Positions 1 to 45,366 of a stretch of 64,000 nt of DNA are shown here, piece by piece (positions within the stretch are counted from its first letter, which is position 1; each line of letters starts with the position of its first letter). The notes under the pieces were generated by a model. It did no database searches. It was not told where the DNA came from and worked only from the letters and a program-made list of their open reading frames with translations. This DNA is from Bryoerythrophyllum caledonicum. Lineage: Eukaryota > Streptophyta > Bryopsida > Pottiales > Pottiaceae. Made by a program: the position numbers and the translations under genes. The stretch spans positions 1,752,028 through 1,816,027 of the forward strand of contig OZ020519.1 of NCBI GenBank assembly GCA_963971425.1, written 5' to 3'.

Positions 1-640
1 TTTATCTGACAATCATCATTAGTTAAATGTTTTATCATTCTTCTTGAAATGGCCTTGTGGAGGTAGTTGTATGCCATCTACACCCCTTGAAGGGAGTGCC
101 ACCAACGGCACTCTCTTTAAAGAATGCTTATAGCTTTTTTGAGGCAGCCTTTCGTGCAAATAGTGCCAACAGCTAATTCTTTTGGAGGTGCAAGTGGCTT
201 GCACAAGGCATCCCATAGAGAGAGTGCCGCTGGCCGCACCTTCTTCTTTAGATGTTGATGGTTTTCTTGAGGCAGCTTCTAGAGGGAGTGCTGCCAGAGG
301 CTCACCCTTTTAGAGGTGCAAGTAGCTTGCTCAAGGCATCCCGTAAAGTAAGTGTTGTTGGCGGCACTCTCTTCTTCGGATGTTGATGGCGTCCTTGAGG
401 CAGTCTCTAGTGGGAGTGCTGCCAACACCTCACCCTTTTAGAGGTGCAAGTGGCTTGCTCAAGGCATCATGTAGCGTAAATGCCGCTGGCGGCACTTCTA
501 ATTTTAGAGATTGTGAGGTACCAAGTGGGGTAGTATGAAAAGGGGTGCCGCTAGTGGCGCCTCTATTGGAGTGACAAAGGGTTCCTCCCTCTAATCCCCT
601 TCAAGGGTGGTACCGTTGGCGGCACTTTTTTCTAGAGGAT
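1..640. repeat. 128-bp tandem repeat with GTGCCGCT-type palindromes
   Basis: The segment has no convincing coding region. A unit containing GAGGTGCAAGTGGCTTGC begins near 185, 313 and 441, giving a period of about 128 bp. Each unit also has a near-palindrome of the form GTGCCGCTGGCGGCAC (near 221, 480, 545 and 608, variants near 97 and 350). The same palindrome, in perfect form, recurs at 16361. Both sites lie in non-coding flanks or introns of the same split methyltransferase gene copy, so they may be parts of one intronic or transposon-derived repeat. The ORFs here are short and not conserved between units. Confidence 0.7.
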
Positions 641-725: not shown

Positions 726-2552
726 CAAGAGATTGGTGAAGCAGCAACGCATGCCAATAGAATGTTTATTGAGAAGTATCCAGAGAAGACAGTTTAGTGG
801 AACATGAAGGATTTGCACCATGAAGTGTTGGAAAAGGCAAAGAAGGTGAAAAAGGACTATGTCACTGAGGTGAAGAAGCAGCTGCCTCCTGCTGACCCGA
901 AGCACACGCCTCATTTTCTCAATCAGGTTAAAATCCATTATGAAAAGCGGGAAGATGACCGAGAGATGTTGCAAGAGAAGTTGTTCTACTTGGCAACATC
1001 CGCGATGTCCGCAGCGATGAATTTAAGTGGCTTGAGTGATGGAACATGAAGCCCTCTGTTCAAAAAGCTGTGAGATTTCCTGAGACCAAATTCAACGACC
1101 ACGACTTTCCCATTTGGCTAACTTGGGCTACTTGGTGGGCACAAGTGTGTTGATTTTGATACCTTTTCCTATTATCACATGTTTGATACTTTCATGTGTA
1201 TTAAAATTATGCATTATAAGTGATTTCAGATCTCTTCTGAAACAAGCAATCTTCTTTATGGAGCATTGGCTGAACTGAACAAGACTGCCAACTATCATCC
1301 GGTCGATGAAGATGCCATTCCAACTATTGTTGACTGGGTTGAGCAAACGCGCATTCAGCTTTGAGAGATTGCTTTCAACACTGAGTTGGCAACCAAGGGT
1401 GTCTCTAGGAACAACATTTCAGATGAGAAAAAGTTTTTGTCTGAGGCTGTCAAATTGTCAATCGAACTTTATACAGGTACTTCCATTACGTGTTGCTTCC
1501 TAGGATTAAAGTTTCAAAAATCCCCCCTTTCTTCGCAAACTACTTGGATCCTACTAGTGACAGCTGCATGTTCACTGAGGAGAATATGAAGGATTGGGAT
1601 AGGGAGCACTGGAAGAAATGTGGGTGGTACTTATATTGTCCAAAGAATAGACCTCCTTTATTTGACATTCCACTGTGGAATTCTATTCATCTTACTCTAG
1701 CAGGAACAGACTTGGTCGCGATTGTGACAGAACCCATGAAGAAGACTAGGGGGGCATGGAAAAAGGCAGCCAACGAAGATGCAAAGAAGAAGAAAGCCGT
1801 TGAGGAAGAGGTCTCGAGGAAGTTGAAGGAGGCCGAAGAAGAGGTGACGCGGAAGCTATAGGCGGCAAATGCGGCGGAGGCAACAGCATCACGCAAAGCG
1901 GCAGCCTTGGAAGCACAAATCGCGGCAAGAGACGCAGCACCAAGACGGCAACAAGTGCATGATGCTTTGCCCTTTGATGGCGCCGATGATCATGATGTTC
2001 AAGAGACATCCTTCTTTGCGGCACCCCTCGAGACTCAGCAACGTTTCTCCATCTCCCCCGCTATTCATATTCAGCTTATGGACTTGTTCAGTCCCATATC
2101 CATAGGTTTCAAAAGATTGAAGAGGAAGATGGCCATTGGAAAATCCACCAAACAGCCTGGCGTGGACTTGGTGTCCTCAACACTTATTGAGAACACGAGC
2201 CTCACAAAGATAATGGATGTTCTACCGCAAGTGCACCCGATTCTTGCAAACATGAACAAGTTTTGCATCGAGGTAAGACTACCTATGTTCAATAGTTGTT
2301 CTTTTGTTTGCATGGATGGTTTAATCCTTGATTACTACGTACCTGCAGATCCAACCTTCAACCACTACCCCGGAACATTTGGAGGCTTGCCCGCACAGTG
2401 GCTTCAATCTCATCATCGGAGACTTCCCTGATGGAATGCCGGTACCTTTAATCTCCATACAGCCTACTGTCGTTCCTATATGGAACAACTACAACAAGAA
2501 GGATGTTGAGTCTGTTTTCAAGTTTGGGCATGAATTTCTTCACCAAGGTTGC
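726..2552 (+). pseudogene. ParB-DNA methyltransferase copy 1, middle part (broken by a MULE insertion)
   Basis: Exon-by-exon homology to the minus-strand gene at 2902-8313 identifies this. Likely exons are 726-926 (starts QQEIGEAA, as QQEIALAA in the other copy), about 993-1130, 1230-1480, 1504-2272 and 2349-2552. The 1504 exon holds a WYL motif region (CGWYLYCP; GRGWYLDC in the other copy), then a Lys/Glu/Ala-rich coiled coil. The last exon holds the degenerate motif IV region of an N4/N6 DNA methylase (FNLIIGDFPDG) and the start of the next helix (FGHEFLHQGC). Coding stops exactly where the MULE terminal repeat begins at 2551, and the gene resumes near 15350. In-frame stops lie near 799, 1015-1020, 1362 and at 1859. 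Any ParB-encoding 5' exons would lie left of the window. It is a relic, not a working gene; the family assignment depends on the better preserved copy. Confidence 0.72.
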
Positions 2553-2901
2553 TAGCGCACGAGCCTATGAGCATGAGCCTATGAGCCTATGAGCCTGTGA
2601 GCTTACCATTTTTGTATCTCATAAAATGTGGAAGGACCTATGACCGTGGGTTTAAGAAATATCAATGGTGTTAAATAGTTAGGTCATTTTGGAAAAATTT
2701 AAAGCCTTTGCAAATGATGTAACTAATATTATATGCAATGAAAAGTGTAGTCTACTTTGAAGGAGATTCCCACCAAAAAATATAAATATCAATAACACTT
2801 CAACAAGGTATATAGCCATAAAACACACAAATCCAATTAAAATAAAATACCAATACATAATAGGCTAGGATCTAAGATTTTGGTGAATCTCAACGGCCCA
2901 G

Positions 2902-5900
2902 CTAGGATGATGTGGACTCATATGTAGAATCCTCAGCCATAGAAGAATCTAAAGACTCTCTACCCTTTGTTGCTGACCCATCCATAAATTGTGAAATATC
3001 TGGGTCATATTTCCTTCTTTGGAATTTTGGGTTGGAATAACCAAACTCCGCAAATGCAGATGACAACTGCTCGGCATAAGGTCGAAGATGATATGACTTC
3101 TCAGGGCTAAAGAGAAGGCCATGATTCTTCATCACTGTCTCTGCTAAAGTCAATCTTCCACAACTGCAAACGAGGGTGTTATAATGTTAGAGTTGTAAGA
3201 TAATATTAGCAGACAGTTAAATGAGAATAAAAGAATGTGTCCACGTACTTACTGAATCTAGCCTTCCGAGCAAACTTTTTGGGCACTACAATCATGGCAT
3301 CCGGATCTTGTGGCGCCACAACAGGAGGCGGTTGAGATGTCACCATTGGCAAATCAGGCTTCTTCATGGGCTTGAGGAGGGCCTCAAAAATTAGCTTGTC
3401 CTCCTCCAAAGCTACGATGTGGCGACCTGTGCCACGGCAAGCGGTAGTTGACGCACCTGAATAAAATCAAAATCCAAATAAATTGGTGAATATTCAATTG
3501 GTATAATAACTTTCCAATATACAACTATTAAATTGGATGTTCACCTGTAGATGATGTACAGTCAAAAACTAGATCTCCTTCCATGGTTGTAGCTTTGAGA
3601 AGGAGTTGGAAAAATCGAGGGTCCTTCTAGCAAGGCCCACGCCACGGTTTAGAACTATCCAGCCAAGTCACACTCTCTGGTAAAGTTAATCAACATGTCG
3701 TCTCGTCCTAGGTCCACACCTGCATTCTTGGTCGTTGTTGTGTGCTTGAAAGAGAATTTTGATGGCCCTAGCTCACCAAGATCCTTCACCATGAGACTGA
3801 TGCCAAACTTCTGTGTCTGTAGAGTTCCAAAATTTTATAATATAGTTTGGAAAATTAAAAATATAGAATTGAATGGAATGGAAGTAACATGAATTAGGGT
3901 CTATGAAATATTACCGTGGTAGAAGTGTCCACTGCAGAGGTCAAGTGAAGTCTGTTCATCCCCATCCACTCTTTCCTCCTCACCATATTGTATGTCTCAC
4001 ATAATCCAGCAATGTTGGCCTTCGATTCAGAGCAAAAAGAGTGGAAAATAATCATGCATCCATGGTCCTGGAGATGTCGTTCTGCGAACCCAAATGCGGA
4101 TTGAAGAGCCTCATACTCCTCATCTACATTCCACGAAGGAACTGCAGTAGCCGGAATAGACACCTCCGGCACAGGCAAGTTTTCTTGACAATCGAATAGG
4201 ACAAGGTCCACTCCAGGTCTCCGGTTTAGTACACCATTAAACATGCGAGACTTGCCTGCGGACATCTAGAAACCCAAAATGTCTTCAAATTTCAAATTAC
4301 TACCAATATGGGATTGCAATCAAACATCATGAGAAACGACTTATAACAAAAACAAAGAGATGCTAACCTTCTTCATGAACTCCATCACTTCAGTGTACAG
4401 TAGTGGGGTATCAGAGTCCAAATTATCCAAGAGTTCTTCAATGGAGATGTTGAGAATTAGGGCCTCTGTGTTGTTTAACTCTCATCATCCAAGATAATCG
4501 GAGCGGTTCCAAAAGTGATGACGTCTTCTGTCAACTGTGGCAGGGCCGCCTTCCTCTTCAATCCGCTTAGAGACCCACTTTGCATGTGAGAGCTCTGATC
4601 TAAAGAGGAGGGTGAAAGTCCACTAAGGTGGTATATTTATAGTGTCACAAATGGTTTTGGAAAGAGTCACAAACCTTCTTTTGCTACATAGTGCGAATGC
4701 GGAATTGATCTTGGAATTCTATTAATGGAATGTGATAAAAGCCTTGATTTAAAGTCTAGGAACCCCAAAAATGTTGAGTTTTGTCTTACGGTTTGGCCAA
4801 TATAGGTATATCTTTCATCAATATATACTTGTCACAAGTATATGACATTTGCCAAATATACCTATTTTGAGAGTTCTAGGAAGTTAAATACTTCAAAAGT
4901 TTTGGGACACATTCACGCCATAATGTGTTCATATATTATAATTGAAAATTCTAGATCGGAAACTTATTTTCACTTTTATTGCTAAGAAACGAGATATTTC
5001 TTCAAGGCTCCTAAAATAGGACTCAATGTTGATTTTTGCTTTGATTTCTTATCCAATCACATACATCATGCATAGATCCATCTTGAAACATATTTTTTTT
5101 TTAAAAACCTTATTTTTCCATTAAATTGGGCAAAATCAAGTTTTTTTGTCCAAAAATATATACTTTTGGGTATATTTTTTTTGCCCAAAAGTGAGTAACC
5201 CTAGCTGACTTCTACCCTAGAAGGTACTGGAATAGGAGCAACGCCGTCGGGCCTACTCATGCCTTTGCTCTTCCCCTTCCCCTTCTCTTCTTTCTCCTTC
5301 TCCTTAACTGCCAACTTTGCCAATCGCTCTTCCTCCTTCTTTTCCTTAATGCTCAAAATATCCTGGACTCGAGCTTTCTTCTTCTTATCATCAACATCCT
5401 TCTTGGCAATGGCCCTTTTCTTTTGTTTCTCAGAGAGGCCTGCAAACTCGTTCACATCCAAGTCAATAGCACCAAGACCTTCAAAAGACTTTTGAAGTTG
5501 TACCTCTGATGGATGAGTGAAGCTCATGTTGCAATCCAAGTACCACCCTCTTCCACTAAGATTAGCAGTTGTGAAAGTTCGTAACTGGGTGGGAGTGTAC
5601 ATACAATCCGTTGAACTACGGTCCAACCATGTGGAAAGAAAAGGAGGTAGGTCTCTCCTAGAAATTGCTTCAAGCTCATGCTTAAAGTACCTAGACAACA
5701 TCAATTAGAGTAATGAGGTGATGCAAATAAATTGTTTGATAATTTAAGTTTTAGAAATATCACAACTTAAACAAGAACTACAATTGATCAACAACCGTAT
5801 AGAAGTTTGTCAATTCCAAATATGTATTTGTTCCAAAGAAAAGAGTTGCAAAATGGGGGGAATAAAAGTAATAACATACCGAAATATGACTCTACGAACC

Positions 5901-8313
5901 ACCTGATGGGACCCCTCATAGTTTACAAAGGAGTCACCCTTCTTGAACACATTAGCTCCTTTGAAAACAGATCCAAAACCTTGATCCCAAATCTTCCTCC
6001 GCCATCCTTCCAAGTACTCCGGTAAGTCCTCCGGCTGCAAAGGGACATTCATGTTGATTGTCATACTATCTGTCTTAACCACTGAATCGAAGTACTCAAT
6101 TGCAGCATCTTCAATCTGTTCCAGGACAATAACAACTTTGTAAAATAATGAATGAACTGAGAACTTCTTAAAAATATGACATGTGATAAATAACTCATAG
6201 AAGAGATGAAGTTATGCACATACACTTGCATACCAAACACATTTGGTAAGAAATGGCCCAAGAATTGACTCCGCCACAGGTTTAGGAGGAAATCGCCTTG
6301 CTTCACGAGTTGGCATGGAAGAGTTCCACCATTGGAGAAACTTGATCTTGTGGTAGGGCGTGGTGTTGCAAGTAGCAACCATCTGGAGTTTCTCCAATGT
6401 CATCTCCGGAACCTCGTTCAAACTCCAATGTTTCTCTACCTATTCAAGTCCACCGACGTGAATTTAAGCAAATATGAAATCATATAAACAAACTAATTTA
6501 TGTCAACATAAAATGTTAAGAAATCAGAACTGACCTCCTTAAGAAAGCCAGGACTATGAGCAGGGTTGGCTATAGTAAGTAGTTTAATCATCTTCACATA
6601 CAACTTCGTAGACTTCTCATGAGCCCCAGCTTGCATGGCATTAGCAACCCCATGCTCGATTTTTTCGTGAGCTAAAGTCACCTCGTGGTACTTTCATACT
6701 GCAGCATTTGCTGCAAGTGCAATCTCTTGCTGCACAATACCAATGATATAAAATGAAACATGTAATCAAATTTAAGGAATCTCATATTCTAACAATATCC
6801 CTGAAGACATTCAATAATTTGGAAAGCTCACCCTGAAAACAAATGACGTGAAGACTTCAACTGGCATTGAATACCACGTCTTCCTTATAGATTGGACCGA
6901 ACAACGCTTCACCTCTGACGGTCTGAACAACTCTTGGAACCGCTCCAATGGCATAAGACCGTACTTTTGAACCTAGTAGAGTGTGTGAACCAAATTAGTC
7001 TTTACATGAGAGCCCCCTGTGCTTCTGCAAGTGAAAATATATTAATTCTAAGTCAATTATACAACAAATGAAATACATGAAATTCAATGTCATAAAAAAA
7101 ATTACGAAAAAGCCAAATATAACATTCACGGCTTTCTACTTACTTGTTTATGTCATGCATCACTTGCATGACCAATTCAATCCTCCCTTTTGTGTTGAGC
7201 AAAATGCAATCAACCGCAATGTGCCAAGCTGGGTCCGTGGAATGGAGCCTGGATATGTGCGTCATCCAGGCTTGAAGTCGATGATTGCCATCACAGACAA
7301 AGATCTTCAAATTCTTCAAGAACTTGAGTTCCTCTACAGAATTCACATACTTCTCAAAGTTGTCGTTTACCTTCTGCCAATAAGGACCCCATTGATCTAT
7401 CTCCTCTGTTGTGAACTCCATGCTCTCACCAGACTCATCAGTAGTAGACACGTAGAATACCGACGCTCCATCCCTGTATCCATGGACAAACTCTTGTTCT
7501 AGCTTGACAATGTCATATGATAGGGTAGGTCTCACCATTGGCATTGCCACAAGCCGGCAAAGGGGAATGCTCAGCCGGAATAGTTTCTCAGGTTTCAACC
7601 TTAGGCTTGAAATCGTGGCCACCGAATCCACCTTGTGAAGACGTCGGAGTTCATCCTCCAGAAGCTCCTTTTCTTCGTCTTCAATAACATCAACGTCCAT
7701 GAAATCTTCCGCGTTATCAATGCCAATCTCAGGCTGACTTGTATCATTAGTGGCAGGAGTCAATATAATGCTATCCACTTGTGATACGATACTAGGTGAA
7801 ACTTCTATCTGTACAAAAAATAAAATTATCCTTTAAGATTGATACCAAATACACTGCTGTGTATGAATCCACTATGCATATATTATGTAGATTTTACAAT
7901 GATTTTCACATGTCCTTCATATGTCATCAACTTTGGAATTTTTGCACTTTGAACTACAAGCATTGTTGCATGTGTCTGCTAAGTACGAAGCACTAAAAGA
8001 AGTCGAGGTGAACAAAAGTGAGGTATACTATGTATTGGAGTTTTCAGTGACTAAAGTGGCCTACTCCGCTTGAGGTACATAATGTCATTTAAAAAAACAC
8101 ATGTAGGGTCACAAGCATCTAGTAATGTACCAAGACATATCAATGCAACATCCATGCCAAAATCTGAAGTCAACTCAGAAGGTACCTCTGTATTGCTTGT
8201 CGTTGGACTTTTTCGCTCAGATGGGCCTGCCAGGTCTGCAATGGGGCATAACTCACTTGGCACGGTGGATGGAGATGCTTCACCACCATCATGTACTTGT
8301 GGCAAAATCTGAA
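2902..8313 (-). pseudogene. ParB/Srx-like domain fused to beta-class DNA N4/N6 methyltransferase (copy 2, decayed)
   Basis: About 12 exons can be traced: 8313-8050 (uncertain), 7808-7144, 6972-6836, 6732-6536, 6440-6224, 6117-5882, 5692-5217, 4599-4368, 4265-3915, 3812-3549, 3456-3253 and 3163-2902. Exon 2 encodes a ParB/sulfiredoxin-like domain with the signature LKIFVCDGNHRLQAW. A Lys/Glu-rich coiled coil follows near 5217-5500. The C-terminal half shows a permuted methylase order: motif IV region (VDLVLFDCQENLP), an AERHLQDHGCMIIFHSF strand, then motif I (LVFDCTSSTG) and GRHIVALEEDK (motifs II-III). ParB-methylase fusions are known from bacteria and phages. Motif IV lacks the usual DPPY/SPPY, so activity is doubtful. 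A TGA near 6703, a frameshift near 4478 and stops near 3640 break the frame. It lies wholly within the MULE, in divergent orientation to the transposase. Confidence 0.72.
4600..5217 (-). repeat. Dispersed ~620-bp repeat acting as an intron (copy 1)
   Basis: Read on the minus strand, this block starts at GGTAGAAGTCAGCTAGGGTT and ends at a pyrimidine-rich stretch followed by AG. It is the inverted, clearly related counterpart of 50594-51228. Here it lies between two coding parts of the methyltransferase gene, and its ends coincide with a GT donor and an AG acceptor. The sister gene copy at 1504-2272 is contiguous at the same place. Internal landmarks are a GGGCAAAA...TTTTGCCC inverted stretch and an ATACTTGTCACAAGTAT near-palindrome. 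It could be an introner-like element or a transposon that happens to be spliced. Confidence 0.65.
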
Positions 8314-8396
8314 GATCAAGAATGAAGTTTCTATGAGCGAAATAGCAAACGAGGCTTGTGTAGGACAACAACAAGGGCAAGACCTAAACACCATCT

Positions 8397-8830
8397 TGGA
8401 GTACCCTAGTGCCTCTCATCGGCATCAGTCGGAGCCGGCTGATGTTGGTGGATTACCTTTGAGTACTCTAGAAAACATCGACAAGAGGTGGGACACAGAA
8501 AATGATACCAAAGCTTGAAATACGAAGGACCCATTGTAGTTAGACTATCCAGGAGAAATTTAAAAAAATGAGGATCCGGAGATTGGACATTGAACGGACT
8601 TAACGGAGTGATGTCAGAGACCAAATCTCGGAGTCCCTTGGTTCCTCTCCCCGACATCAGTCGGAGCCGACTGATGTTGGTGGAGTACCTCTGGGTACTA
8701 AAAAAAATTTGACAAGAAGTGGAACCTAGAGAAGGAGACCAAGGCTCAGAGTACCCTAGTGCTCTTTTTCGGCATCAATCGGAGTCGACTGATGTCGGTG
8801 GGATATCTCGAAGTACTCCCAGTAACTTAT
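8397..8830. repeat. ~117-bp degenerate tandem repeat with a strong palindrome
   Basis: Three copies of an inverted repeat with arms CATCAGTCGG and CCGACTGATG around an AG centre begin at 8423, 8655 and 8773. Each is preceded by GGAGTACCCTAGTGCCTCT-like sequence and followed by GAGTACT-like sequence. The spacings (232 and 118) fit a unit of about 117 bp with one monomer lost or diverged. A fourth copy stands alone at 10038. The array lies in the non-coding centre of the MULE, between its two divergent genes, where promoters would be expected. A paired regulatory or protein-binding site is possible but unproven. Confidence 0.65.
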
Positions 8831-10376
8831 TGACTACAAAAGCTTAAGATCAAACCTTCGAAACCCAATACTGAAATGACCTCCTTAAACTCATTTTACA
8901 CTTCGCAATATAGAGTCGCTGATAATTCCTAGCCCGAAACAAAATCTTAGCTCGAACCGAATGCACTCGCGGCCTCAAACACATTTAAACCTAAACCCCT
9001 ACGCATGAAAGCTTACTTGCGATGGCTCTACGGTTGAAGGAAGTGAGGCACTCCAATTTTGACTTCGACCTCTTGAGTCGCCCTTAGTGCATCCACAACT
9101 ACGAGTCATTGTCTCCTCTCGTTCTTCTGGCTGATCGCTTCCCCTGGCAAATGTGAGTGACTTTGATGGTAATCGGACCGAAATCTAGTGCATTTCAGAT
9201 GCAAAAGGCCATCATGAGTGATGATCAAGAAATACAAGGATTGTGCAGCTTACCGGATTTCACGAAGCTAGCGAGGGCAGGCACAGTGCTACACCCGTAG
9301 GCGCGTTTAAGACCAAGAATCAACCCTAAACCCGATTCAAATATGAAGTACTAATGTTGAAGATTTATCATTCATCTGGTTGCTATTCTGAATCGTGATT
9401 TTTCCTCATCAGTTCATTTAATAGTAAAATATAGCATTTTTCCTTTAGAAAATTCACCCCAAAATTACTATATTTAGTAAATTTTTCTTCGCCCCTACAA
9501 TCTCCCCGGGGAGACGTCAAGACACGAAGGGAAAACATTTACCAAAACTAAGGAGGACCCGGGTCCACACGTCACAAGTAAAAATAAGAAGCCCACTTTC
9601 TACATGTCTAAAAAGAAAATAGTCTCCAACATAATATTGAAGTCCTTCTATACAAGTAATCTATGGCGTTCTATAATGCCATTCTTCAACGTTGAAACCT
9701 AGGTTATAACTTATACTAGTCTAATATAGCGTAGCTCACCGAGTTCATATTGAGGCACTCATGTTGAAAAATAAAAATAAAAATAAAAAAACATGATTGT
9801 AAACATTACTAGACTACTCTTTCCTGAATGTCACAAATCCTTAGTCTTCAATGAGCTCTTCTCTAATCCATTACCTGACACAAGCTAGTAGAAATTGTGC
9901 ATAAATCAAGCAAAATCGAGCTGTAATAAATCCAAAAACCCATAACAAGGGAATCATTGCCATGACCTGAGCTTCGTAGCGGGAGAAGAAGATAATAACA
10001 ATACCTGAAGTAGAAATACTTTGGGCACCTTCATTGGCATCAGTCGGAGCCGACTGATGTCGATGTAGGGACCGGAAGTACTCCCAAAATATCACCAAAT
10101 CTATACCAAGATCTTAGTGCTTCGACTAGTGGGTCGGAAGGAAAACGTTGATCACCTGCAACACTATTGCGTTCTTTGGAAGATCAAGAAGACATGTTGC
10201 ACCCTATTCATCTCAACGGTTGTGGCCACGATGTCCTGAATCCTAAACACCACTTTAGGCCCAAATCCAAAACACCAAATCACCCACAATACTAATTTCA
10301 GGCACCAAGGTACCTTGCAAAACGTAATGTAACAAGATATAAAACCATTACAGTATGGAATTGATGTACGCTTACC
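8831..10376. other. Non-coding centre of the MULE
   Basis: No ORF here has homology or good splice context. Visible items are a 14-bp palindrome TCTCCCCGGGGAGA near 9505, and the isolated CATCAGTCGG/CCGACTGATG palindrome at 10038. This stretch, with the array before it, separates the divergent transposase and methyltransferase genes and probably held their promoters. Confidence 0.4.
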
Positions 10377-10686
10377 TCTCTGCGCTTCTCCCTAGCTGAA
10401 TGAATTTCTCCACTATCTTCTTTCTGCAATATTTCCACTTCTTCCTCAATCCGCTCCAGTCCAACATCTGCTACTCCGGTGCCCATATCACCTTCAAAAT
10501 GTAAAACCTTTCGAAGGTCTCTTGTAGTTCCTTCCATTGTCTTGGATACCACCTTTTTATCCCTCATTCTCGCTCTTCTAAGATCCTTTGCAGAGGAAAA
10601 CAATAAAGTACGGTGTTTTTTTCTCTTTTTTCTATTTGTTTCTACAACCACATCAACACTCTGGTTCTCTAAGTGCATGAAGTCCC
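10377..10686 (-). CDS. Putative basic exon in the MULE centre, function unknown
   Basis: An open frame on the minus strand is bounded by an acceptor-like CTCTTTAG near 10687 and a donor-like GTAAGC near 10376. It encodes a charged peptide of about 100 residues with a nuclear-localisation-like RKKRKKH cluster and Glu/Arg-rich helical stretches. It could be an upstream exon of the ParB-methyltransferase gene, which runs on the same strand from 8313 down. No homology is recognised, and no start codon or linking transcript can be shown. Confidence 0.3.
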
Positions 10687-11139
10687 TAAAGAGTAGCAAT
10701 AGATGATATGAATAAGCTCAATGTGAACAACTTCAAGAAGACATATCTGGTCACAAGGATCAAAGGGGCGTATTTCTAATGATATATAGCATTCTCTTAC
10801 TCTCATTTCAAACCACATTGATTTAATACAAAGAGGCATTTACTTCCAATCCAAGTGCTTCAGTTCCTGCCAACTCCATGTGAAGGAGTTACACATGATC
10901 TAAAAAATCGGAAGCTAGACACCTAATATAGTGCAACCAACTCAGATGTTCATTACGTAATGCTTTAAAGTTTGGAACTTTCCTTATCTGGCTTGGCTTT
11001 CAAATATTCGGCCAGTACAAGCTGTCCATATTGCTATCACCGCCGTCCATGTTGTACGCATTTCTTTATATATGATAAAATTTTATAACAAATTCTAATC
11101 CCAGTTTTAATCAATAAAGATAATGATATTTTACAATTG

Positions 11140-14100
11140 ATGAATTCCGAATGATCAAATTTTCATCCACAAACAGCAAGGTGTGTTCCAGTATCATGTT
11201 GTTAAGGGATCCAAAATTCCAAATGCATCACCATCATTCTTCTATCAATGTTGCTCAAACCTTACTGTACTTCACAATTGTCTGTGGTGTAAGAACATGG
11301 CTTATGTCCGAGTTGATGGTCATGAGGTTCCGCTTCTCTTTCCTATTGTTGAGGGAGGTCGAGCCCGAGTGTCTAGTCACCTACTTCACGTCCGATTCAG
11401 AATTTTAGAGTCTTCAATCTATGTTGAAGAGGAGAGAAAGTCAGCATCCGGGGACTTGCTAGAATCCATCGTAGTTGACAAATCAATTGATGATTGTTGG
11501 TACCTATTCCCTGGAAACTATAGAGCATATGGACTTCCCCTACCACTTCTACATGAGTCCACTGAGATTCTTAGTCGTCATTCCGATACGTCAACTGTTA
11601 ACATGCGGTACACTACGCCACTAGTTTCACCAAGGTCTAGGATTGGATTTGATCCTTTGGTGTCACAACAGGCATTGTTGCGTCCGGTGAAGATTGAGAA
11701 ACTTGATCCAATAATTGAGTTGTCCAGTGGATCTGATAGTGAGTACCCTTTTGTGCCTCTACAAAAACTGTCATCATTAATTCCCACTACTTTGGATGAG
11801 ACCACGGACGCTTCAATTGGTTACTCAAAAGAGCCTTTGTTGTCCACCCCCACACATCTCCACAGGATTCCAGTTGATGAAGTGAGTATTCTTGATAGCT
11901 TGAAGAGACTAGCCACTATGCATCGTTCTAGAAACGAGTTGTCTACGATGGATGTCAACACTGTCACGCACCGTCGGGTACAATATCTGCCTCCAACTTA
12001 CAACGGCACTGTCATTTTTGAATTGCCACCATGTCGATCTACTTCATCTTCATCTGCAGCACGTAACTTGGAGGGAATGGATAAGCGATACGACGGACAC
12101 CCGTGGTGCAAGTTGGTGACAACTAACATCTACAATTCCGACCAGCTCAAGTTTTGTAAGTCATACTGCGCTGGTCACCTTGCTTACGTAAATCCAGATT
12201 GCAATTATGTGAAGGGTTTGTATAGAGATGCCGCTGCGAAGATAGAAGATCTGATTGCAGAACAAGTAGCCAAAACTCCAACTGCTACCAACTCCAACAT
12301 TGTTCTAAATGCAAGCAAGGACTTTTTGTCAAGCTATTTTTTTCACAATGGGGATGGAAAGAAGACCATGCTACAAAGTGAAGAACTCGAAGAAGTAATG
12401 GATCGTTTTCAGGTCTTGAGCAGTCCTAACATTAGGAACATGATATCTTCTTTTCGTTCAACCAGCCATGGCGGTGTCATTGACAACATCATGGCCATGA
12501 AGAGAGACTCAAAGTTTGAATTCATACATGATAGTGTATTTCCTGGACAAGGTAAAGAGAAGGTTTATTTATTCAAGATGTTGACTGAAGGACCAGGAAG
12601 TGGTGTAGACCTTGTGATGCGCATGCAAACTGGAGGGGACCTTCAAAATACATGGATGATGTTTGATCACGTAAAGCGTGTCAAGGACTGGACCACCATG
12701 GCGTGCCACGTATATGATCCAGAGTACAAGAAGGTCATGACTATTGCAACGTGTGATATGCAATCAGAAGATACAAAAATTCAAGTGCAATTTTGGAGAT
12801 CCGTGAATGCTGTCATGTTGCAATATGGATTGAATCACCCAAACTTCAAGGGATTTATGGCAGATAGTGCTATGGTAAACTGGAATGCTATTCGGATTGT
12901 TTATGGCACAGGGTTAGTAGAAGATAAGATGGAGAATCATGAGAGGACATGCTTGTTGCATTGGACCATGTCTCTTCAAAAGCACACTCAGAAATACATC
13001 AAGGGATTCTTCCAAGAACAACACACTAAGCTTTGCAAACAGTACAAAGATTCAAAGACTATGGAAGAGGCAGAGACACGTTATCTTGCAATTTGATCAT
13101 GGTGGTTATCATCCGGGGCTGCAAAAAAAGAAGCACTTCATCACCTAGATCATTGGTTGGCATTCTGGCATTTCAGGTATAGACAATGGGGCGACTTCAT
13201 GCAACTGGTAAGTCAACATCTAATTTTTCTATATTTTGTGTCACATCTTCTCCTACAATAAGTCTTTGTCATATAGTTGAAAAAGACGTGGACATAGTAT
13301 TCTATGAATATAGTTAGCATTTCAATGCAATGAAAAAATAAAAAATTGAAGGTGTTGATAAAATGGATTTGTAGGATTTGAACTTGGACAAATTGGCCGA
13401 CATGCCTTCTTGCAATTTATCGGAAACATTCACAACAAGTGGCTTCAGATGTCCGGAAATCGTGGAAACAATTTATTTGATGCCACTTCAGATGACATCA
13501 TCCGAGCTTTGATGCAAATGGAAAACTATAGAGCGTAGTTGAAGGGAAGCGCTTCTGGATCCGACCCTTCAAAAGCGGAGTTGAAACTAAGAGCAGCAAG
13601 GCAGAGTAGGGACCCGAAGAAGATGGCACAAGCACTAAATGCCTTACTTGGAGCTAAAGATATTGGATCTCATGTTCCACATTTGGAAGGAGAAGAGATC
13701 TTTGGAACTAGAAAAAGGAAGTTTGACGAACCGGTTGGCGATGCAGGAGACTAACATCGACCGGACAAAGTAAACTTCTCCCATCCTTGTGTTTATACTA
13801 GATCATCTAGGGCTAATGTAGACTCTCCAGAGAATACACGTAGAGACTCTGAGCCATTAACAGCCTCTCACGTGACAGTCGCTTTTGAAAGTGACTGTCA
13901 TACAACAAACTGGCATATAGCAAGGATTAGCCACAAGTCCAATGCTAGATGTGGAGCTCAGCAACGGAATTCCAATTTAAAGTGCATTGCTAGAATTGCC
14001 AAAGGGTCCAAGGGAACACCGGCCCCAACATATCGTGGTAGAAAATTGGACTACGGTAGTCGTCAAGAGGTCATGGCGGACTTTTGGTTTTGTTCATATG

Positions 14101-14762
14101 ATATCGAGCGGTGTGTAAAGGGAACAAAGAGAAAGTGGGTCATTGATTGGCCTGAAGTACCAGAAGTGTGGCCAGTTTTAGCCGGTACAAACCTTAATCG
14201 AGAGGAGACTTTGCTTCTACAACATGTAGGGTTCCGATTACAAGAGCGCTTGACGTTGTCACCACGTCGCCTATTCAATATGACCAATGTGTTTGAGGCA
14301 GTTGCATTTGATCAACCTCCACCAGCAAATCCAGATGTGTACCCAATAGTGAGGAACAACAAAATGATTCGTAGAATTGCAAGTGCCCCAACACCTGAAC
14401 AACGAAACAAGTGGGAGAGTGTTGCCAATGTTAAAGGAATGATATTGGGGGTGACAGTTCTTCCATTTCTGGGCTTAGGTGCAGTATTGACCCTTAAAAC
14501 TGGAACAGAGGCTAACAAAAATATCTACCGAATTACTCTTGGTATGTTTCCATCATGCACATGCCCAGATTTTGTCAACATGGTTGTTTCAGCGATTGGC
14601 GGTCATCAACAGTATGTAAACTGCAAGCACTTATATTATTTGTACATGTTCTTCTGCAAAATGGATGTTCAAGAAGACAAGTTTATTCATGCACCAAGTT
14701 ACAACTTCAATGAGCTGAAGCAATTGCTTGTTCGAGCAGGGATCATTACTATAGTTGATTAG
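11140..14762 (+). pseudogene. Mutator-like transposase with SWIM zinc finger (three in-frame stops)
   Basis: The first 640 codons stay open from about 11140 to 13093. They include a MULE-type catalytic region: VKDWTTMACHVYDPEYKKV, then KGFMADSAMVNWNAIRIVYG, then a CxxH element in RTCLLHW. The same frame continues past a TGA at 13094 (SWWLSSGAAKKEALHHLDHW), an intron runs from about 13201 to 13375, and the frame goes on past a TAG at 13537 and a TAA at 13752 to the end at 14762. The C-terminus holds a SWIM finger: CTCPDF, then NCKHLYYLYMFFCK. The stops fit single transitions (YRA*LKG faces WAWLKGG in the relative at 58.5-60.3 kb). There is no in-frame ATG at the 5' end, so an upstream exon is likely. 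It would cut and move the element; this copy cannot make full-length protein without readthrough. Confidence 0.85.
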
Positions 14763-15345
14763 AGTTAATTTCTTCCCAAAAATAAGTATTTATGTCATAT
14801 CCTATAATATAGTTCCATATTCAAACAAGGATCAGTGACATATTAGACAAGGCAATTTTATTCTTTTTTAATTATATTTTTGTCGTTATATAATATATTA
14901 TTGTTGTTTTAAGTGAAATACTTTGAACCATGTGGAATGGAGTATTTGAATGACCGTGGTTTATATGAGGTCGTATGTGTTTTGTGAAAAGTTTTCAATA
15001 ATCATTATATGTATGCTATTCGAAGTCAATAATTCCATAAAGCTTAGGGTCTGACATTACAATTACACTTTGAAAATTAAGTGTTGATGTATCTTCAAGT
15101 GCACTCTATTTTTGCTCAACAATATAATAATTAAGAATTCGAGGCTTCAAAAAAGGGAGCCACAGTCATAGGAGCTATTTATTATTTTTTGATCATAAGT
15201 ATCAATTTTTTCTATAAACAATTTTTTTTTTGCATTTTAATTGCAAAGTATCCATTTTTTTTTTAAAACTTCAGTTCAAGGCTCTAGGCTCACATGCTCC
15301 TTGCTCACAGCTCGCAAGCTCGTAGCTCTAGGCTCGCGCGCTAGC

Positions 15346-16166
15346 GTCGTTGATTTCTTCACTGTCAGGGTAGTATTCTGGCCTTTGCACTTGTACGTCC
15401 CAAGGTCCGAACCGATATTCTGAGCTACGCTGATGCGTTCGATTTCTACATGTTGTGGGAGTGGTGGGATATAAACGAGCTCCTATTGCATTCGAGTGTG
15501 GATCCAAAAATAAAGGTAAAGACTATCATCATTATCATCAATTTTTAGTTCCTACACATTCATCTCAACTTCTATACAGTCTTCTCACTTTCATCATTCA
15601 TTTTTTACAGTCCCGACGGTTTAGGTTTTAGTTATTCGTGCCCAAAGTAGTTCAGCCGGATGATTTCATCATTGCGCCAGATGAGACGCTCTCGGCATTG
15701 AACGTCGATGTCTCTGAGTCTGATGTTGTTTTCAATTACACCTCCTTAGAGTTGCACTCTATCAATGGGAACGTCCCATAGAGGGGTCCCCGCGAGAAAG
15801 ATACCGTCGTCCTTCAAATGCTCATTGTAGCTCTTACTAAGCCGGGCTCACTTGTCCTTGATGCATTTGCGTCTACAGGTAATACTTTTGATATGCTTTC
15901 ATTCATTAAATTTGCATCTACGATTTTAATCAATAAAAATTCTCTTCACTTCATTTTTGTCAGGAAATTATATTCACGCGTGCAAGGACATTGGGCGCCA
16001 CATTGTGGCTTTGGAGCACTTGACAATGACGTCTTTGAGGCCATGTTGAAGCCTCTTCGTGCAGTAACGCGTGATACTCTAATGCCTACTTTGTCTTTGT
16101 CCATTGGTCCCTGCCTTGCTCATGAGATCCAAATCCAACCAGTGGCGAAGCGCAATAGATTGAGTA
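15346..16166 (+). pseudogene. ParB-DNA methyltransferase copy 1, C-terminal part (continues 726-2552)
   Basis: This is the remainder of the gene interrupted at 2551. Likely exons are 15346-15513 (FLHCQGSILAFALVRPK, matching the post-motif-IV segment of copy 2), 15612-15878 and 15964-16166. The second exon ends with LTKPGSLVLDAFASTG, a motif X-I segment of the VLDPFAGSG type. The third opens with NYIHACKDIGRHIVALE, motifs II-III. A shift of frame near 16017 separates IVALEH from DNDVFEAMLKPLR. Stops occur near 15632 and 15779. The motif order (IV before I) marks a beta-class permuted N4/N6 methylase. The match of exon borders and motifs to the left-hand part shows that one gene was split. Confidence 0.75.
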
Positions 16167-16199
16167 CGTAAGCTCCTTCTGTCTTCCAATCAATTATCA

Positions 16200-16680
16200 T
16201 CTTTAATTTGGAAGTTTTCTCAAGGTCTGTACGTTATTATGTTCAAATTTGTAGCTGTACGTGTAGAATAATGTGGCCTCTAATGGCACCTTCTCACGTT
16301 TCCTATTTCAAGAGTTTTAATGTTGAGGCAGATGGCTTCCTAAGGACCTCCTTGAAGTCAGTGCCGCTAGCGGCACCTACTTCACGGGGCCCTTTTGGAC
16401 CTCATTGTTGTTTGGACCACAGTTATTGAACTTCAAGGGGGTCCTCTAAACCTCACGGCCACCTTTTACATACGCATGTCACTTACTTTCTAGAATACCT
16501 AGTTTATATCATTGTTTAGCAAAAATAACTTTGGTTTAAAGATTAAACAACTAACATCTATAATTTGGAGGAATTTTCAAGATCTGAACCTTTTAATGTT
16601 GATATACGACTCCAATAATAGTGTGGCCACTTCTAGTGCCTTCTGACTTTTTTGATTCTTACTTTGGTTGTGGCATTTGC
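16200..16680. repeat. Diverged repeats with a perfect 16-bp palindrome
   Basis: GTGCCGCTAGCGGCAC at 16361-16376 is a perfect palindrome of the type scattered through 1-640. Two related segments follow one another (AATGTGGCCTCTAATGGCAC near 16269; a similar GTGTGGCCACTTCTAGTGCC near 16620). The segment flanks the last recognised methyltransferase exon and has no supported coding sequence. Confidence 0.5.
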
Positions 16681-27479: not shown

Positions 27480-27659
27480 GACCCCCCCCTATTTCCTCGT
27501 TCTACTTCCTTCCCTCTTGTTTGCAATTCTTGGGTACCGGCTGCTCCCTCGTGGACTGTCTTGGAGTACCAGCTCGTCTTCTCGGGTTCCCCAAGTTCTG
27601 TGCTCCGGTCTGGACCTCTCCGGTGCTGCAGCTGGTGTGATGGTGCCTCTAGGCGGGTA

Positions 27660-28970
27660 AGTAGTGGTGCCTCCGGCTCGGCTACTACAGTACCCCCCGG
27701 GCTGTAAGGAACAGGGCCTCCGAGCTTACCTCAACAGTGCCTCCGGGCTGTAAGAATGAGTGCCTCTGGGCTTACCTCGACAGCGCCTCCGGGCTTGTAC
27801 GTGAAGGTGCCTCCAGGCTGTAAGGATGAGTGCCTCCGGGCTTACACGTGAAGGTGCCTCCGGGCTTTGTACGCGAAGGTGCCTCCGGGCTGTAAGGATG
27901 AGTGCCTCCGGGCTTACACGTGAAGGTGCCTCCGGGCTTTGTACGCGAAGGTGCCTCCGGGCTGTAAGGATGAGTGCCTCCGGGAGTAAGGATGAGTGCC
28001 TCCGGGCCTACTTCGACAACGCCTCAAGGCTTGTACGTGAAGGTGCCTCCAGGTTTGTACGCGAAGGTGCCTCCGGGCAGTAAGCAACAGTGCCTCCGGG
28101 AGTAAGGATGAGTGCCTCCGGGCTTACCTCGACAGCGCCTCCGGGCTTGTACATGAAGGTGCCTCCGGGCTTATACGCGAAGGTACCTTCGGGCTGTAAG
28201 CAACAGTGCCTCCGGGAGTAAGGATGAGTGCCTCCGGGCTTACCTCGACAGTACTTCCGGGCTTGTACGTGAAGGTGCCTCCGGGCTTATACGCGAAGGT
28301 GCCTCCGGGCTTATACGCGAAGGTGCCTCCGGGCTTGTACGCGAAGGTGCCTCCGGGCTGTAAGGATGAGTGCCTCCGGGCTTATCTCGACAGCGCCTCC
28401 GAGCTTGTACGTGAAGGTGCCTCCGGGCTTGTACGCGAAGGTGCCTCCGGGCTGTAAGGATGAGTGCCTCCGGGCTTTTCTTGACAGCGCCTCCGGGCTT
28501 GTACGTGAAGGTGCCTCCGGGCTTGTACGTGAAGGTGCCTCCGGGCTTGTATGTGAAGGTGCCTCCGGGCTTGTACGCGATGGTGCCTCCGGGCTGTAAG
28601 GATGAGTGCCTCCGGGCTTACACGTGAAGGTGCCTCCGGGCTTGTACACGAAGGTACCTCCGGGCTTGTAAGGATGAGTGCCTCCGGGAGTAAGGATGAG
28701 TGCCTCCGGGCTTACCTCGACAGCGCCTCCAGGTTTGTACGTGAAGGTGCCTCCGGGCTGTAAGCAACAGTGCCTCCGGGAGTAAGGATGAGTGCCTCCG
28801 GGCTTACCTCGACAGCGCCTCCGGGTTTGTACGTGAAGGTGCCTCCGGGCTTGTACGCGAAGGTGCCTCCGGGCTTACACGTGAAGGTGCTTCCGGGCTG
28901 TAAGGATGAGTGCCCCCGGGAGTAAGGATGAGTGCCTCCGGGCTTACCTCGACAGCGCCTCCGAGCTTGT
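27660..28970. repeat. 1.3-kb minisatellite of 23/24-bp units
   Basis: More than 50 units share the core GCCTCCGGGCT. Three spacer types alternate: TGTAAGGATGAGT, TACCTCGACAGC and TGTACGCGAAGGT. This gives 23- and 24-bp units arranged in higher-order groups of roughly four. The 24-bp units read through as an eight-residue repeat (GASGLVRE on +, SPEAPSRT on -), but frames change wherever a 23-bp unit occurs, so no long protein is encoded. It lies just upstream of the minus-strand gag-like ORF. Confidence 0.85.
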
Positions 28971-29219
28971 AATCGTCCTCTCCCTACTTCTGCCTCAGCT
29001 CGTCTTCTCACTTGTTCTTGGCTCAGCTCGTCTTCTCTCTAATCAGTGGTGCTATAGAGGTCGGGTGGAGTCGGTTAAGTAGTTGACCGGAGCTCAAGGG
29101 GAAGATTCCGACGGGTTGCGGCTGTAGATTCCACGTTCCTTCCTTTTGTTCCAGCTTTTGCTCCGGGCTCGGCACATTCGATTCTCGCTTTACAACTTGC
29201 GTTTGTCTCTCACTCCTCG

Positions 29220-36479: not shown

Positions 36480-36947
36480 AAAAAAATTAATAACCCAAAA
36501 TAAATTGCGCACTACTTCTACCTCAACAAAGCATACTTAAATCACTCCACTCCCTCCTATTAAAATATTTGTCACCATCATAAGAACCTGATTTATGTCA
36601 CGCACTACTTTTACTTCAACAAAACATACTTAAACTACTTCACTCTATACCATTAAAATACATGTCACCATCTCAAGAAGCCAAAATATGCCACACACTG
36701 CTTCTACACAAATAAAGTATACTAAATCCACCTCACTCTCAATCACTCCAATCTCTTTTAATAATATACCCATCACCATCATAAGAACCCAAAATTTGTT
36801 GCGCACTACTTCAACATAAACGAAGCATATTTAATCCACTTCACTCTTTCTCATGAAAATACCCATCACCATTATATGAACCCAAAATATGTCATGCAAT
36901 ACTTCTCCCTCAACAAAGCGTACATTAACCACCTCACTTGCTTCCAC
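36480..36947. repeat. 93-bp satellite, block 1
   Basis: Monomers of about 93 bp have the phrases TTAAAATACCCGTCACCATC, AAAATATGTCACGCACTACT and CAACGAAGCATACTTAAACC. This left block is separated from the rest of the array by the TIR element starting at 36952. Confidence 0.85.
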
Positions 36948-37519
36948 TAAGAACACGCAATTAAGCAATTATGCACTTAGCCAAGTGCACTCGTTGCTGG
37001 TAGAAAGCCGCAAGTTATTTGCTCAAAACTTCAAAAAAATTAAAAAATTGGCAAGAGTTTAGTATGTTTTTTGTCACAAAATTTTGGTGTTTGTCGTGTC
37101 AAACATTGGCATCTTCATGTTCATATCAGAAATATATATATTACATTCACTACCTTTTTTTAGAAAATATATGATTTCTAATATAGTTTGCAAATCCTTC
37201 TACAAAATTATAATCATGTGCCCAAAGAGATTATAAATGTTTTTTGAGTTATTATAGGATTTTAGAGTATTGTACTACAAATACAATGTGTAAGAGATAC
37301 AAAAATATATATGCAATTTCCTAAGAAAGTGTGAGGTACCTCACTGTATTTTATAATGCAAAAACATACAGAATCAAGCAATTCCACACTATTGTTGAGA
37401 GATTTTAAAATCAAACATATCATATGGGCCACCCAAAATATAAATATATACCATCCACCGAACGATAGACACATCTTAAACTGCATTATACTAACGTACT
37501 TGCCACCTTAACTGCGTGC

Positions 37520-37580
37520 ATGCTCTACTATAGTATATAGCTCCAGGGCTCAAAGCTCATCTTCTAGCGCAACGACTCCC
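37520..37580. repeat. Orphan MULE-like end
   Basis: Inverted, the segment reads GCGCTAGAAGATGAGCTTTG followed by AGCCC, resembling the GCTAG...GAGC ends at 2551 and 15345. No partner is found. It is probably the remnant of an older insertion in the 6.3-kb element. Confidence 0.35.
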
Positions 37581-37649
37581 TCCACGTGTCCAATGGCGCT
37601 ACCTACCATAGCGGACAATTCATGATCCTACACTGGACGATCTTCCACA

Positions 37650-38240
37650 TTTTCGGCCATGGTACCAAAAAATCTTCTACATTTCCACATAAAACTTTGA
37701 GATCTTCATATGAATCGCTTTTGATTTTCCCCACGGCATTATGTGATGTAAACCTTCTTATTGACCATTTGGATTCTCAATTAAAACAATATTAAGTTCA
37801 CAAAAAATTATAATGTGAATTGAGAATTTTTGAACCTCCACTCATTGCACAATTTTTTTGAATATGCTACACTCCTTTTTACCTCTAAAAATTGGTGCAT
37901 AAGGAACTAATAGCATGCTTAGAATTATGGTAATTAATTGAGACCTTTTATAGTGCAAAAATTAGACACCAACTGAAGTCAAACTGTGCTGATCCAGTAA
38001 ACGTAGGGAAGAAAATGAGCCTTTTCTCTACTTCAAACATTATAATCTTTCAATCCGTGCGGTCAAACTATATGAAATTTTGTGATTGTGTAAATTAATA
38101 AGTCGTTATTGAGATCCTACGGTTAAAACTACAAAAAAACTTCATGTGTTCATCCAAGCTAATTGCACTAAAACAAGCATTTTTAACGAGTTTTAGTTGA
38201 GATATTCTCTACACCATTTATGAACTAAGGTACTTTGGGT
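37650..38240. mobile_element. Partial TTAA-family element
   Basis: It shares GGTACCAAAAAATCTTCTAC and CAATCCGTGCGGTCAAAC with the complete TTAA elements at 17552 and 41276, in the same order. Neither terminal CCCCTAAA is present, so it is a truncated or diverged copy. Confidence 0.55.
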
Positions 38241-38408
38241 ATCAATAGCGAGGGTATCACCACCAGGGTATGACTAGCTGGGTACCATCATCCGGTTATC
38301 AATTTAGGTGTTGGATCAAGGAATCAATTTAGGGTTTTGAATTAGGGTTTTTGTTTGAAGGGTTTCAATGACGGATATCAATCCGGTCATCTTTGGGTAG
38401 TCCTACGA

Positions 38409-39917
38409 GGGGTGTGCGCGCGCACACCCTTGGCAGTAGTTGTGAGGGAGGCTGTGAGTGTGAGAGCCTAGGGCTTGGAGGAGGGAAACCATAAAGGTGT
38501 GGGAGATAGGGGATTGTGAGGGCGGGCAGGAGAAGAATGGAGTGAGGGGAATGGAGGGAGTGTGAGAGAATTTGAAGGTGGGAGGGAGCTGAGGCGGCGT
38601 CCGAGGGTGAGAGGAGAATGTGAGTTCGGGGTGTAGTTCCCGATCCCGTACGAGCCATTGGCGTAGTACGTGATCGGGTGTGGCATGCGGTATGGCCCCA
38701 CGACCTTGCCCGTGATCTCCACCGTGTTGTTGGACGCCTCCTTGTAGAAGTCGTTCACGTTGTTGTTGCCCACCCTAAACCACAGGTCGCGGTAGTGCGA
38801 CGCCGTCTGCGCCCCCCCCCCGGTGAACTGCTTGTCAGGGAAGTCGACGAGGACGACAATCATGTCGACTTCGCCCCTGAGCGGCGCGTGCTTTGGAGAC
38901 GACTGGTCCAGGTGGAGCAAGCCATCGTTTAGCCCCGTTGTGCGCGGCTCCTTGAGGCGCAGCAAGTTGCGCAGGATGGGGAGCTCCTGCAACGCTCGGT
39001 CCCTGAGCTCGTCGAACTTGGTGATCATCTCCTTGAGGAGATCCGGATGCGGTGCTACGAAGCAGGCGTCTCCCATTCTGTGACGGACCCGACGTCTGGA
39101 TGCTGGTTGTGCAGCACTGCCACAAAGTGCTGTTTGATCATTTCTGCAATAACTTTCCGGCAGACGAAGTTTGTGCTCCAGCTGAACACGGTTGTTCAAC
39201 AGGCGGCGCAGCTCAGGTTGAACAGCTCCTGCTTGCGGAATAGTGTTGCACAACTTGCGACAACTTCTTACCGGTGTTGGAGGCGGAGATCGCACAAGAG
39301 AGGCGCAAGTCGCACAAAAGCTGCAGGTGCGCAGGGGAGCACAAAAGCTGCAACACAGGAAAGAGAACGCACCAAGGCTGCAGGCGAGCACAAAGGCTCT
39401 TGGCGACACAGCTTCTGCTGTAGGCGGCACAATTTCTGCTTCAAGCGACGCAACTCCGGCTCCGCATGCGTAGCTTCTGCTCCATCTCCTCCCGGCACAG
39501 CTCTTGTTTCCTTCTTGTCGGTGCAGCTTCTGCAAGCGGCGCAGCTCCGGCTGCAAACTTCCTCTTCTACAGCGAACTTGTTGCTCCTGTTTCCTTCGTG
39601 TAGGGAATTTGTGTAGCAAACCTCCCTAGGGCGCGCTCCAGCAGCGAACTTCGTGCTTCAAACTGCACACTTCGTGTTTACACTTCGTGCTTCGTGGTGC
39701 ACAACGAGATTTGTGAGCACACTCTCTCCTGCGTCGTGCTCCGACTGGGGAGCAGCTCTTCATGTTCTCGCGCAACGCATCCGCACCCTCGAAGTCTTCC
39801 TGCTCCGCGGGAAACTAAGGAAGTTCCTTGATTGGGTTTGTGGTTTATGGCCTGGATGTTTTCAACTATGCTGGATGGAGGAGCAACAGCAGTTGGGGGT
39901 GTGCGCGCGCACACCTC
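38409..39917. mobile_element. Pack-MULE-like element with captured peptidase M6 fragment
   Basis: The ends are GGGGTGTGCGCGCGCACACC and, inverted, GAGGTGTGCGCGCGCACACC, continuing with partial identity (about 35 bp of terminal repeat). The flanks are TAGTCCTACGA on the left and TAGTCTACGA on the right, a 10-11-bp target duplication with one gap, typical in length of Mutator elements. The interior is strikingly GC-rich compared with its AT-rich surroundings and contains host-gene-like coding sequence on the minus strand rather than a transposase. It sits inside the 6.3-kb TIR element. Confidence 0.75.
38618..39062 (-). pseudogene. Peptidase M6 (immune inhibitor A-like) N-terminal fragment
   Basis: On the minus strand VAPHPDLLKEMITKFDELR leads into MIVVLVDFPDKQFTGGGAQT, then VNDFYKEASNNTVEITGKVV and GPYRMPHPITYYANGSYGIG. 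This succession (VDFPDK, a DYYKE-like strand, tGeVVGpY, yYAngsYG) is the start of the M6 family metallopeptidase domain. The zinc-binding HExxH helix should follow but the sequence changes to low-complexity Pro/Ser-rich frames, so the catalytic part was not captured. The open frame continues upstream for 190 codons of Arg/Cys/Leu-rich biased sequence with no domain. It is a gene fragment carried by the Pack-MULE-like element. Confidence 0.72.
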
Positions 39918-39984
39918 TAGTCTACGATTACTCCATGAGGTGTCTTGCGAACTACACGAATACGTGGTGACTTGGGTTTCGGTT

Positions 39985-40152
39985 CCTGGTTGCGGCGGCT
40001 AGAGTTTGGATGCAACGGCTAGGGTTTGGTTGTAGCATCTAGGGTTTGGTTGCGGCGGCTAGGGTTTGGTTGTGGCGGCTAGGGTTTGGTTGTAGCGGCT
40101 AGGGTTTGGTTGCGGCGGCTAGGGATTGGTTGCGGCGGCTAGGGTTTCAGGT
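39985..40152. repeat. 20-bp minisatellite containing CTAGGGTTT
   Basis: About eight tandem copies of GGTTGCGGCGGCTAGGGTTT, with a few variants (GTAGCGG, GTGGCGG). The TAGGGTTT core matches the plant telomere repeat. Confidence 0.85.
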
Positions 40153-42225: not shown

Positions 42226-42408
42226 TTAAAGACTCCGTGCAAGGAGATCATGCTCTACAAATTCTTAATTTTTTCATTTTGAAGCTGTTTTATCAAAAGG
42301 TCCAATATCATCATCATATTTTGAACAGTAAATATGTGTTTAGAAACATATCTTTTATCAAATGAATGGTGCTTTGAAGGTTAACAATTAGTACATGTAT
42401 TTTGACTA

Positions 42409-44434: not shown

Positions 44435-44438
44435 TTAA

Positions 44439-45362: not shown

Positions 45363-45366
45363 TTAA

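Follow-up and report, generated by a model that had tools for sequence, protein, structure and literature searches.

The Ectocarpus transposon Sola1-1_Ec32 carries a ParB-methyltransferase as an accessory gene, and the accessible text of its description also cites such genes from green and red algae (PMC12477816). In VANDAL transposons, the protein VANC binds short motifs that are repeated in introns and upstream regions, causing a loss of methylation there, according to the accessible text of PMC5735166. Retrotransposons with cytosine methyltransferases are described from dinoflagellates and charophytes in the part of PMC5890265 that is openly readable. Here we describe a stretch of 64,000 nucleotides of the moss Bryoerythrophyllum caledonicum (assembly GCA_963971425.1, contig OZ020519.1, positions 1,752,028 to 1,816,027 of the forward strand; 41% G+C), hereafter called the window, in which a transposon holds a transposase gene and, divergent to it, a gene that joins a ParB-like domain to a methyltransferase-like domain. 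We consider it fairly probable that this is a Mutator-type transposon which encoded the ParB-methyltransferase as a regular accessory protein beside its transposase.

The likeness to Sola1-1_Ec32 lies in a single protein of ~1100 amino acids with ParB-like and N4/N6 methyltransferase domains, borne by a large DNA transposon. As in the algal cases, one gene encodes both domains, and it lies within the same element as the transposase but on the other strand. In contrast, Sola1-1_Ec32 is a Sola-1 carrier in an algal host, whereas the carrier here is of Mutator type and the host is a plant; the two are likened by description, not by sequence homology. For the red and green algal genes, no carrier is named alongside them in the accessible text. 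Dyad sites are present here and are not mentioned for Sola1-1_Ec32. The idea of a transposon-borne ParB-methyltransferase is therefore not new, and it is the Mutator-type carrier, the land-plant host and the dyads that are absent from that account, as far as its accessible text goes (PMC12477816 for all of these points). Among the literature titles and abstract openings listed, with most subscription papers outside this set, no ParB-methyltransferase is named in a land plant or a Mutator element. VANDAL elements resemble this one as Mutator-type plant transposons with an accessory gene and short motifs repeated in introns or upstream, but they are described as lacking terminal inverted repeats, whereas this element has short ones. 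VANC is a divergent protein, while the protein here has a ParB fold and a methyltransferase domain, and the two are again compared by description (PMC5735166 and PMC6446971, accessible text). By analogy, VANC would be the nearest tested counterpart of the mechanism proposed below. The retrotransposons of PMC5890265 share a transposon-encoded DNA methyltransferase and differ in their class and in having a C5 enzyme, with ParB not mentioned in the accessible text.

A two-gene transposon within an interrupted gene

The pattern GCTAGCGCNCGAGCC occurs in exact form only at 2551-2565 (plus strand) and 15331-15345 (minus strand). These are the matching ends from which a first-pass annotation, made from the sequence alone, had taken its borders at 2551 and 15345. 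The ends are real, but the true borders are further out. An exact 10-bp target-site duplication lies 7 bp outside each matching end, so the element is delimited at 2544 and 15352. The length of the duplication agrees with the 9-11 bp of the target-site duplications of Mutator-like elements (MULEs). The outermost bases are identical between the two ends at 20 of 24 positions, giving short terminal inverted repeats, as MULEs have, which run on at both ends into GAGC-rich subterminal repeats. Only 8 of 20,000 random site pairs equalled these borders in score. The features of the insertion are as follows.

798..2543, plus strand: interrupted ParB-methyltransferase gene, piece to the left of the element (the 5' part is beyond the window)
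2534..2543: target-site duplication, left copy, 10 bp, ATTTCTTCAC, which has only two occurrences in the whole window
2544..15352: transposon, 12,809 bp, delimited by the duplication, the terminal inverted repeats and the exon of the interrupted gene that is restored on its removal
2544..2605: left end, inverted repeat CAAGGTTGCTAGCGCACGAGCCTA followed by tandem GAGCCTAT repeats
2905..10678, minus strand: ParB-methyltransferase gene of the element
11297..14759, plus strand: transposase gene, broken, with a DDE-like core and a C-terminal SWIM-like CxC..CxH
15281..15352: right end, inverted repeat and GAGC-rich subterminal repeats
15353..15362: target-site duplication, right copy, 10 bp, ATTTCTTCAC
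15363..16168, plus strand: interrupted ParB-methyltransferase gene, piece to the right of the element, with LVLDAFASTG

Without the element and one of the two 10-mers, the flanks form a single open exon (frame 0). Both flanks are also collinear with a profile of the Ceratodon relative (below) and the element protein, the left one at profile positions 489-543, 554-589, 656-794 and 901-949, and the right one at 946-999, 1063-1097 and 1094-1113. Four of these seven matches have E-values of 0.0027 or less and three are weak (0.028, 0.029 and 0.83). The restored exon and the collinear flanking pieces show that both ends come from one insertion. Origin of the two ends from different elements was tested, and the duplication, the open frame and the collinear flanks all speak against it. 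Thus, 2544-15352 is a single transposon insertion, and one pair of ends encloses both genes. Judged by these alignments, the transposon inserted itself into a gene distantly paralogous to its cargo gene, and this interrupted gene is also broken, by one stop and one frameshift. The earlier picture of one transposon with two divergent genes therefore holds, with the additions that the element is nested in another ParB-methyltransferase gene and that both of its own genes are broken.

The transposase gene has three in-frame stops (13094, 13536 and 13752), one frameshift and, in comparison with its relatives, a gap of 75 residues. A joined query, in which the stop at 13752-13754 was passed over without an X, found 51 relatives among 7871 candidates, with 45-75% identity over 28-47% of the query. 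In Pfam, Transposase_mut was matched by 1 of 32 of these relatives (E 0.034). The SWIM zinc finger PF04434 matched the transposase at E 0.17 with 12 bits (cut-off 19.6), and the CxC..CxH is readable. By eye, the family has a conserved D, D, CxxH pattern, which we take to be a Mutator-type signature. The duplication, the short inverted repeats, D/D/CxxH and CxC..CxH fit a Mutator-type element that is not proven to be a MULE. Of the MULE/SWIM transposase first annotated, the Mutator-type anatomy remains, while Pfam does not recognise a MULE and the SWIM match is below its cut-off. A relic of a related transposase lies on the minus strand at 58533-60289.

The ParB-methyltransferase gene and its dyad repeats

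The features of the element's ParB-methyltransferase gene are listed below.

3248..3816, minus strand: methyltransferase exons, S-adenosylmethionine (SAM)-binding half (VFDCTSSTG, GRHIVALEED), with one frameshift and one stop
3915..4265, minus strand: methyltransferase exon, catalytic half, motif IV reading DCQE
4610..5217: dispersed repeat of about 607 bp, similar to a miniature inverted-repeat transposable element, inserted in the gene
5204..5689, minus strand: exon with a charged, coiled-coil-like tail, interrupted by the 607-bp repeat
7146..7808, minus strand: ParB exon, free of stops, with the motif DGNHR
8309..10375, minus strand: intron 1, with four dyad repeats inside
8423..8444: dyad CATCAGTCGG-AG-CCGACTGATG, one mismatch
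8655..8676: dyad, exact
8773..8794: dyad, two mismatches
10038..10059: dyad, exact

The gene has 12 exons, matching the ~12 of the first-pass annotation, with the parts on either side of the 607-bp repeat taken as one, and 13 if they are separate. GT and AG were found within 3 bases of the modelled borders in 11 of 11 modelled introns. From the stop codon to the left transposon end there are 358 bp, where ~350 bp had been given. The reading frame of the gene is broken by three in-frame stops, at residues 380, 438 and 1051 in the joined model, and by two frameshifts, one between 4481 and 4469 and the other at 3673/3674, and the 607-bp repeat sits between the coiled-coil-like and methyltransferase parts. 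In total, the ParB-methyltransferase model has 6 lesions in 1234 codons and the transposase model has 5 in 1098. This similar load fits co-resident genes, and comparable decay is as expected if both were functional at landing, which is an argument and not a proof. The second copy of the 607-bp repeat, at 50593-51203, is 93% identical, has GGGT-type ends by eye and resembles a small non-autonomous transposon.

Fold comparison gave the N-terminal domain of the protein a ParB fold, bearing out the ParB/sulfiredoxin-like domain first annotated. The domain has this fold in common with bacterial ParB, Noc and KorB, but is only 11-16% identical to them among the rows listed and has no Pfam match above cut-off. 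A DGxHR-type motif is a hallmark of the ParB/sulfiredoxin superfamily. Across 122 ParB sequences, its D was present in 120, G in 121, H in 122 and R in 119. The family to which the ParB exon belongs has 551 clusters, mostly of unnamed exons. When 88 ParB exons were compared with Pfam, weak matches to unrelated families appeared, such as KMP11 in 4 and Phage_tube_C in 3 (best E 0.0035-0.0047). DUF1015 matches alone therefore prove nothing, and it is the fold comparison that carries the ParB assignment. No contig common to the 51 transposase matches and 120 of the 551 ParB matches was seen by eye, which is neutral on linkage.

Searching 7223 candidates with the long query returned one protein at E <= 0.001, M758_1G295400 of the moss Ceratodon purpureus (1147 amino acids). 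It is 31% identical to the element protein (292 of 942 aligned positions), across both domains. The Ceratodon protein matched Pfam PF01555 (N6_N4_Mtase) with 30.4 bits (cut-off 26.7), supporting the N4/N6-type methylase proposed earlier. PF01555 had no match in the two element exons tried, and the only window piece matching it was the right part of the interrupted gene (E 0.0026, 18.2 bits, below the cut-off). Weaker matches in line with this were to DNA methyltransferases of PHROGs (best E 5.6e-6), type II methyltransferases of PADLOC (best E 1.1e-6), adenine-specific methyltransferases of NCBIfam, far below their cut-offs, and DpnA in the PDB (E 0.053). In the METHYLTRANSFERASE domain, motif IV precedes motif I. 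This is the order of the beta class, of which the catalytic motif is (D/N/S)PP(Y/F/W). The element has DCQE as motif IV, the interrupted gene DFPD and Ceratodon DTPF, and none of these has the beta-class form, while the SAM-binding half is kept in all three sequences (RGP, K, STG, AC, GRH and E-x-D). Searches of prokaryote genomes and viral contigs matched short patterns with no relative confirmed, and a phage search with the ParB exon gave no match. With the Ceratodon protein, matches came from 2 phage records and 12 plasmid records but covered only residues 990-1130 or less, near the SAM-binding half. No bacterial donor was found in the phage, plasmid, viral-contig and prokaryote-genome searches.

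Bacterial ParB proteins bind palindromic sites, bind cytidine triphosphate and form a sliding clamp. The dyads of intron 1 are the centres of four copies of a ~80-nt repeat, which occurs nowhere else in the window and in none of 100 shuffles. The interrupted gene has a dyad of its own.

95..626: dyad AGTGCCGCTAGCGGCACT, six copies with up to 4 mismatches, part of them in 128-bp tandem units; a seventh copy is at 16360-16377

From its collinearity, the region 95-626, just ahead of the first piece of the interrupted gene in the window, is probably an intron. Palindromic AGTGCCGCTAGCGGCAC(C/T) repeats occur at 95-626 and 16360-16377, in or beside the interrupted gene. An 18-bp palindrome, CTCCTCGGTACCGAGGAG, occurs in six copies (0-4 mismatches) at 56520-57477, around a SWIM-like transposase exon relic at 57178-57348. 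We scanned the window for palindromes of any sequence with 8-bp arms, a spacer of up to 4, at least 4 G+C per arm and at least three copies. Exactly three families were returned, each in a ParB-methyltransferase or transposase locus: the intron-1 dyad; GTGCCGCTAGCGGCAC, with six copies (seven when matching is relaxed), in the interrupted gene to the left and right of the element; and TCCTCGGTACCGAGGA, with five copies (six when matching is relaxed), around the transposase relic at 56.5-57.5 kb. The same three were retained with 6-bp arms. Simulated sequences had any family in 0 of 20 cases with 8-bp arms, 3 of 20 with 7-bp arms and 1 of 20 with 6-bp arms, and in 0 of 5 in a separate run.

Probable regular cargo and the alternatives

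The conservation of the family and its abundance suggest that the ParB-methyltransferase gene was kept by selection on the transposon and was not captured once. Before decay, the ParB-like domain may have bound dyad sites in its own element, namely the four in intron 1, and the fused methyltransferase-like domain would have marked or shielded the element's own DNA. Such marking could have helped the element to escape host silencing, or could have set its activity. A fuller eukaryotic version of parS-ParB self-marking, in which a nucleotide-dependent ParB clamp on element-specific intron dyads would spread and the methyltransferase would mark the DNA, with the dyad co-evolving in each lineage, seems to us unlikely. 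If the gene recurs in moss Mutator-type elements, as it does in algal transposons, eukaryotic transposon superfamilies that are unrelated would share the use of one bacterial-like type of DNA-marking protein. The dyad motifs provide a concrete and cheap test of what ParB-methyltransferases bind, and transformable mosses would make the anti-silencing question experimentally accessible.

Several points weigh against regular carriage and the proposed role. The evidence comes from a single element and a single interrupted paralog, together with one named protein and a large family of exons, most of which are unnamed. We infer regular carriage from a single copy of the transposon family, and binding, clamping, methylation and anti-silencing are putative functions read from sequence. 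The transposase family (32 relatives, Pfam) has no match to PF10551 (MULE). No ParB-methyltransferase was detected near the second transposase relic (57.2-60.3 kb) or, by profile comparison, at the third dyad locus (56.5-57.5 kb). In the two window copies motif IV has degenerated, and Ceratodon keeps only part of it. The settings of the palindrome scan were chosen after the motifs had been noticed; without the G+C rule, three further families, all A+T-rich, appear, and 7-bp arms add a minisatellite family (27.8-28.9 kb) and a second family in the interrupted gene. The outlines of the ParB-methyltransferase and transposase loci were drawn afterwards and cover 32% of the window, so that all three families would fall in them by chance about 1 time in 30. 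Of the three loci concerned, two are nested.

These last points on the scan favour the alternative that the dyads are small repeats of an ordinary kind and have no connection with the ParB protein, to which we give slightly less than an even chance. What stands against it is that 8-bp arms with at least 4 G+C single out those loci exclusively, with no family in the 20 simulations.

It is also possible, though we lean against it, that the protein was a DNA-binding regulator without methyltransferase catalysis, with the dyads as its sites, and acted by clamping or by binding, the latter being how VANC acts. The ParB fold suits such a regulator, as do the degenerate motif IV of both window copies, its altered form in Ceratodon and the kept SAM-binding half. 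Methylation by the element's own copy is doubtful because its motif IV is DCQE, and methyltransferase activity of both window copies is unlikely. However, the window copies are broken and the motif may have decayed, and the Ceratodon motif retains D-x-P-F.

A one-off capture of a host ParB-methyltransferase gene, in the style of Pack-MULEs and with no part in transposition, is improbable. Gene capture by MULEs is well known (PMC6446971, accessible text), and a non-identical host copy is present at the insertion site, known as gene pieces rather than as transposon cargo. Yet the gene of the element is near complete, bears introns, is divergent to the transposase and has similar lesions per length; its ParB exon comes from the large family of 551 clusters, and the same kind of gene is carried by algal transposons in the accessible text of PMC12477816.

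It is very unlikely that the ParB-methyltransferase gene is its own mobile unit and entered the transposon by chance nesting. Members of this gene family are abundant, a second copy surrounds the element and the 607-bp repeat exemplifies nested insertion here, but the gene reaches to about 360 bp from the transposon end, as a resident gene would, and no second ends around 2905-10678 were noticed among 20 of 40 direct-repeat families, with no dedicated search made.

Further features of the window

A minisatellite array with embedded CGAAGGTACCTTCG palindromes occupies 27639-28971. Self-comparison revealed ~93-bp tandem repeats in at least three blocks within 36486-48312 (36.5-37.0, 43.3-44.4 and 45.4-48.3 kb). 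An open frame on the minus strand at 38468-39622 has a weak peptidase M6 match that is below cut-off (E 0.0061). On the plus strand, a protein-kinase fragment at 53902-54456 matches PF07714 at E 0.00016, with 21.5 bits against a cut-off of 23.1.
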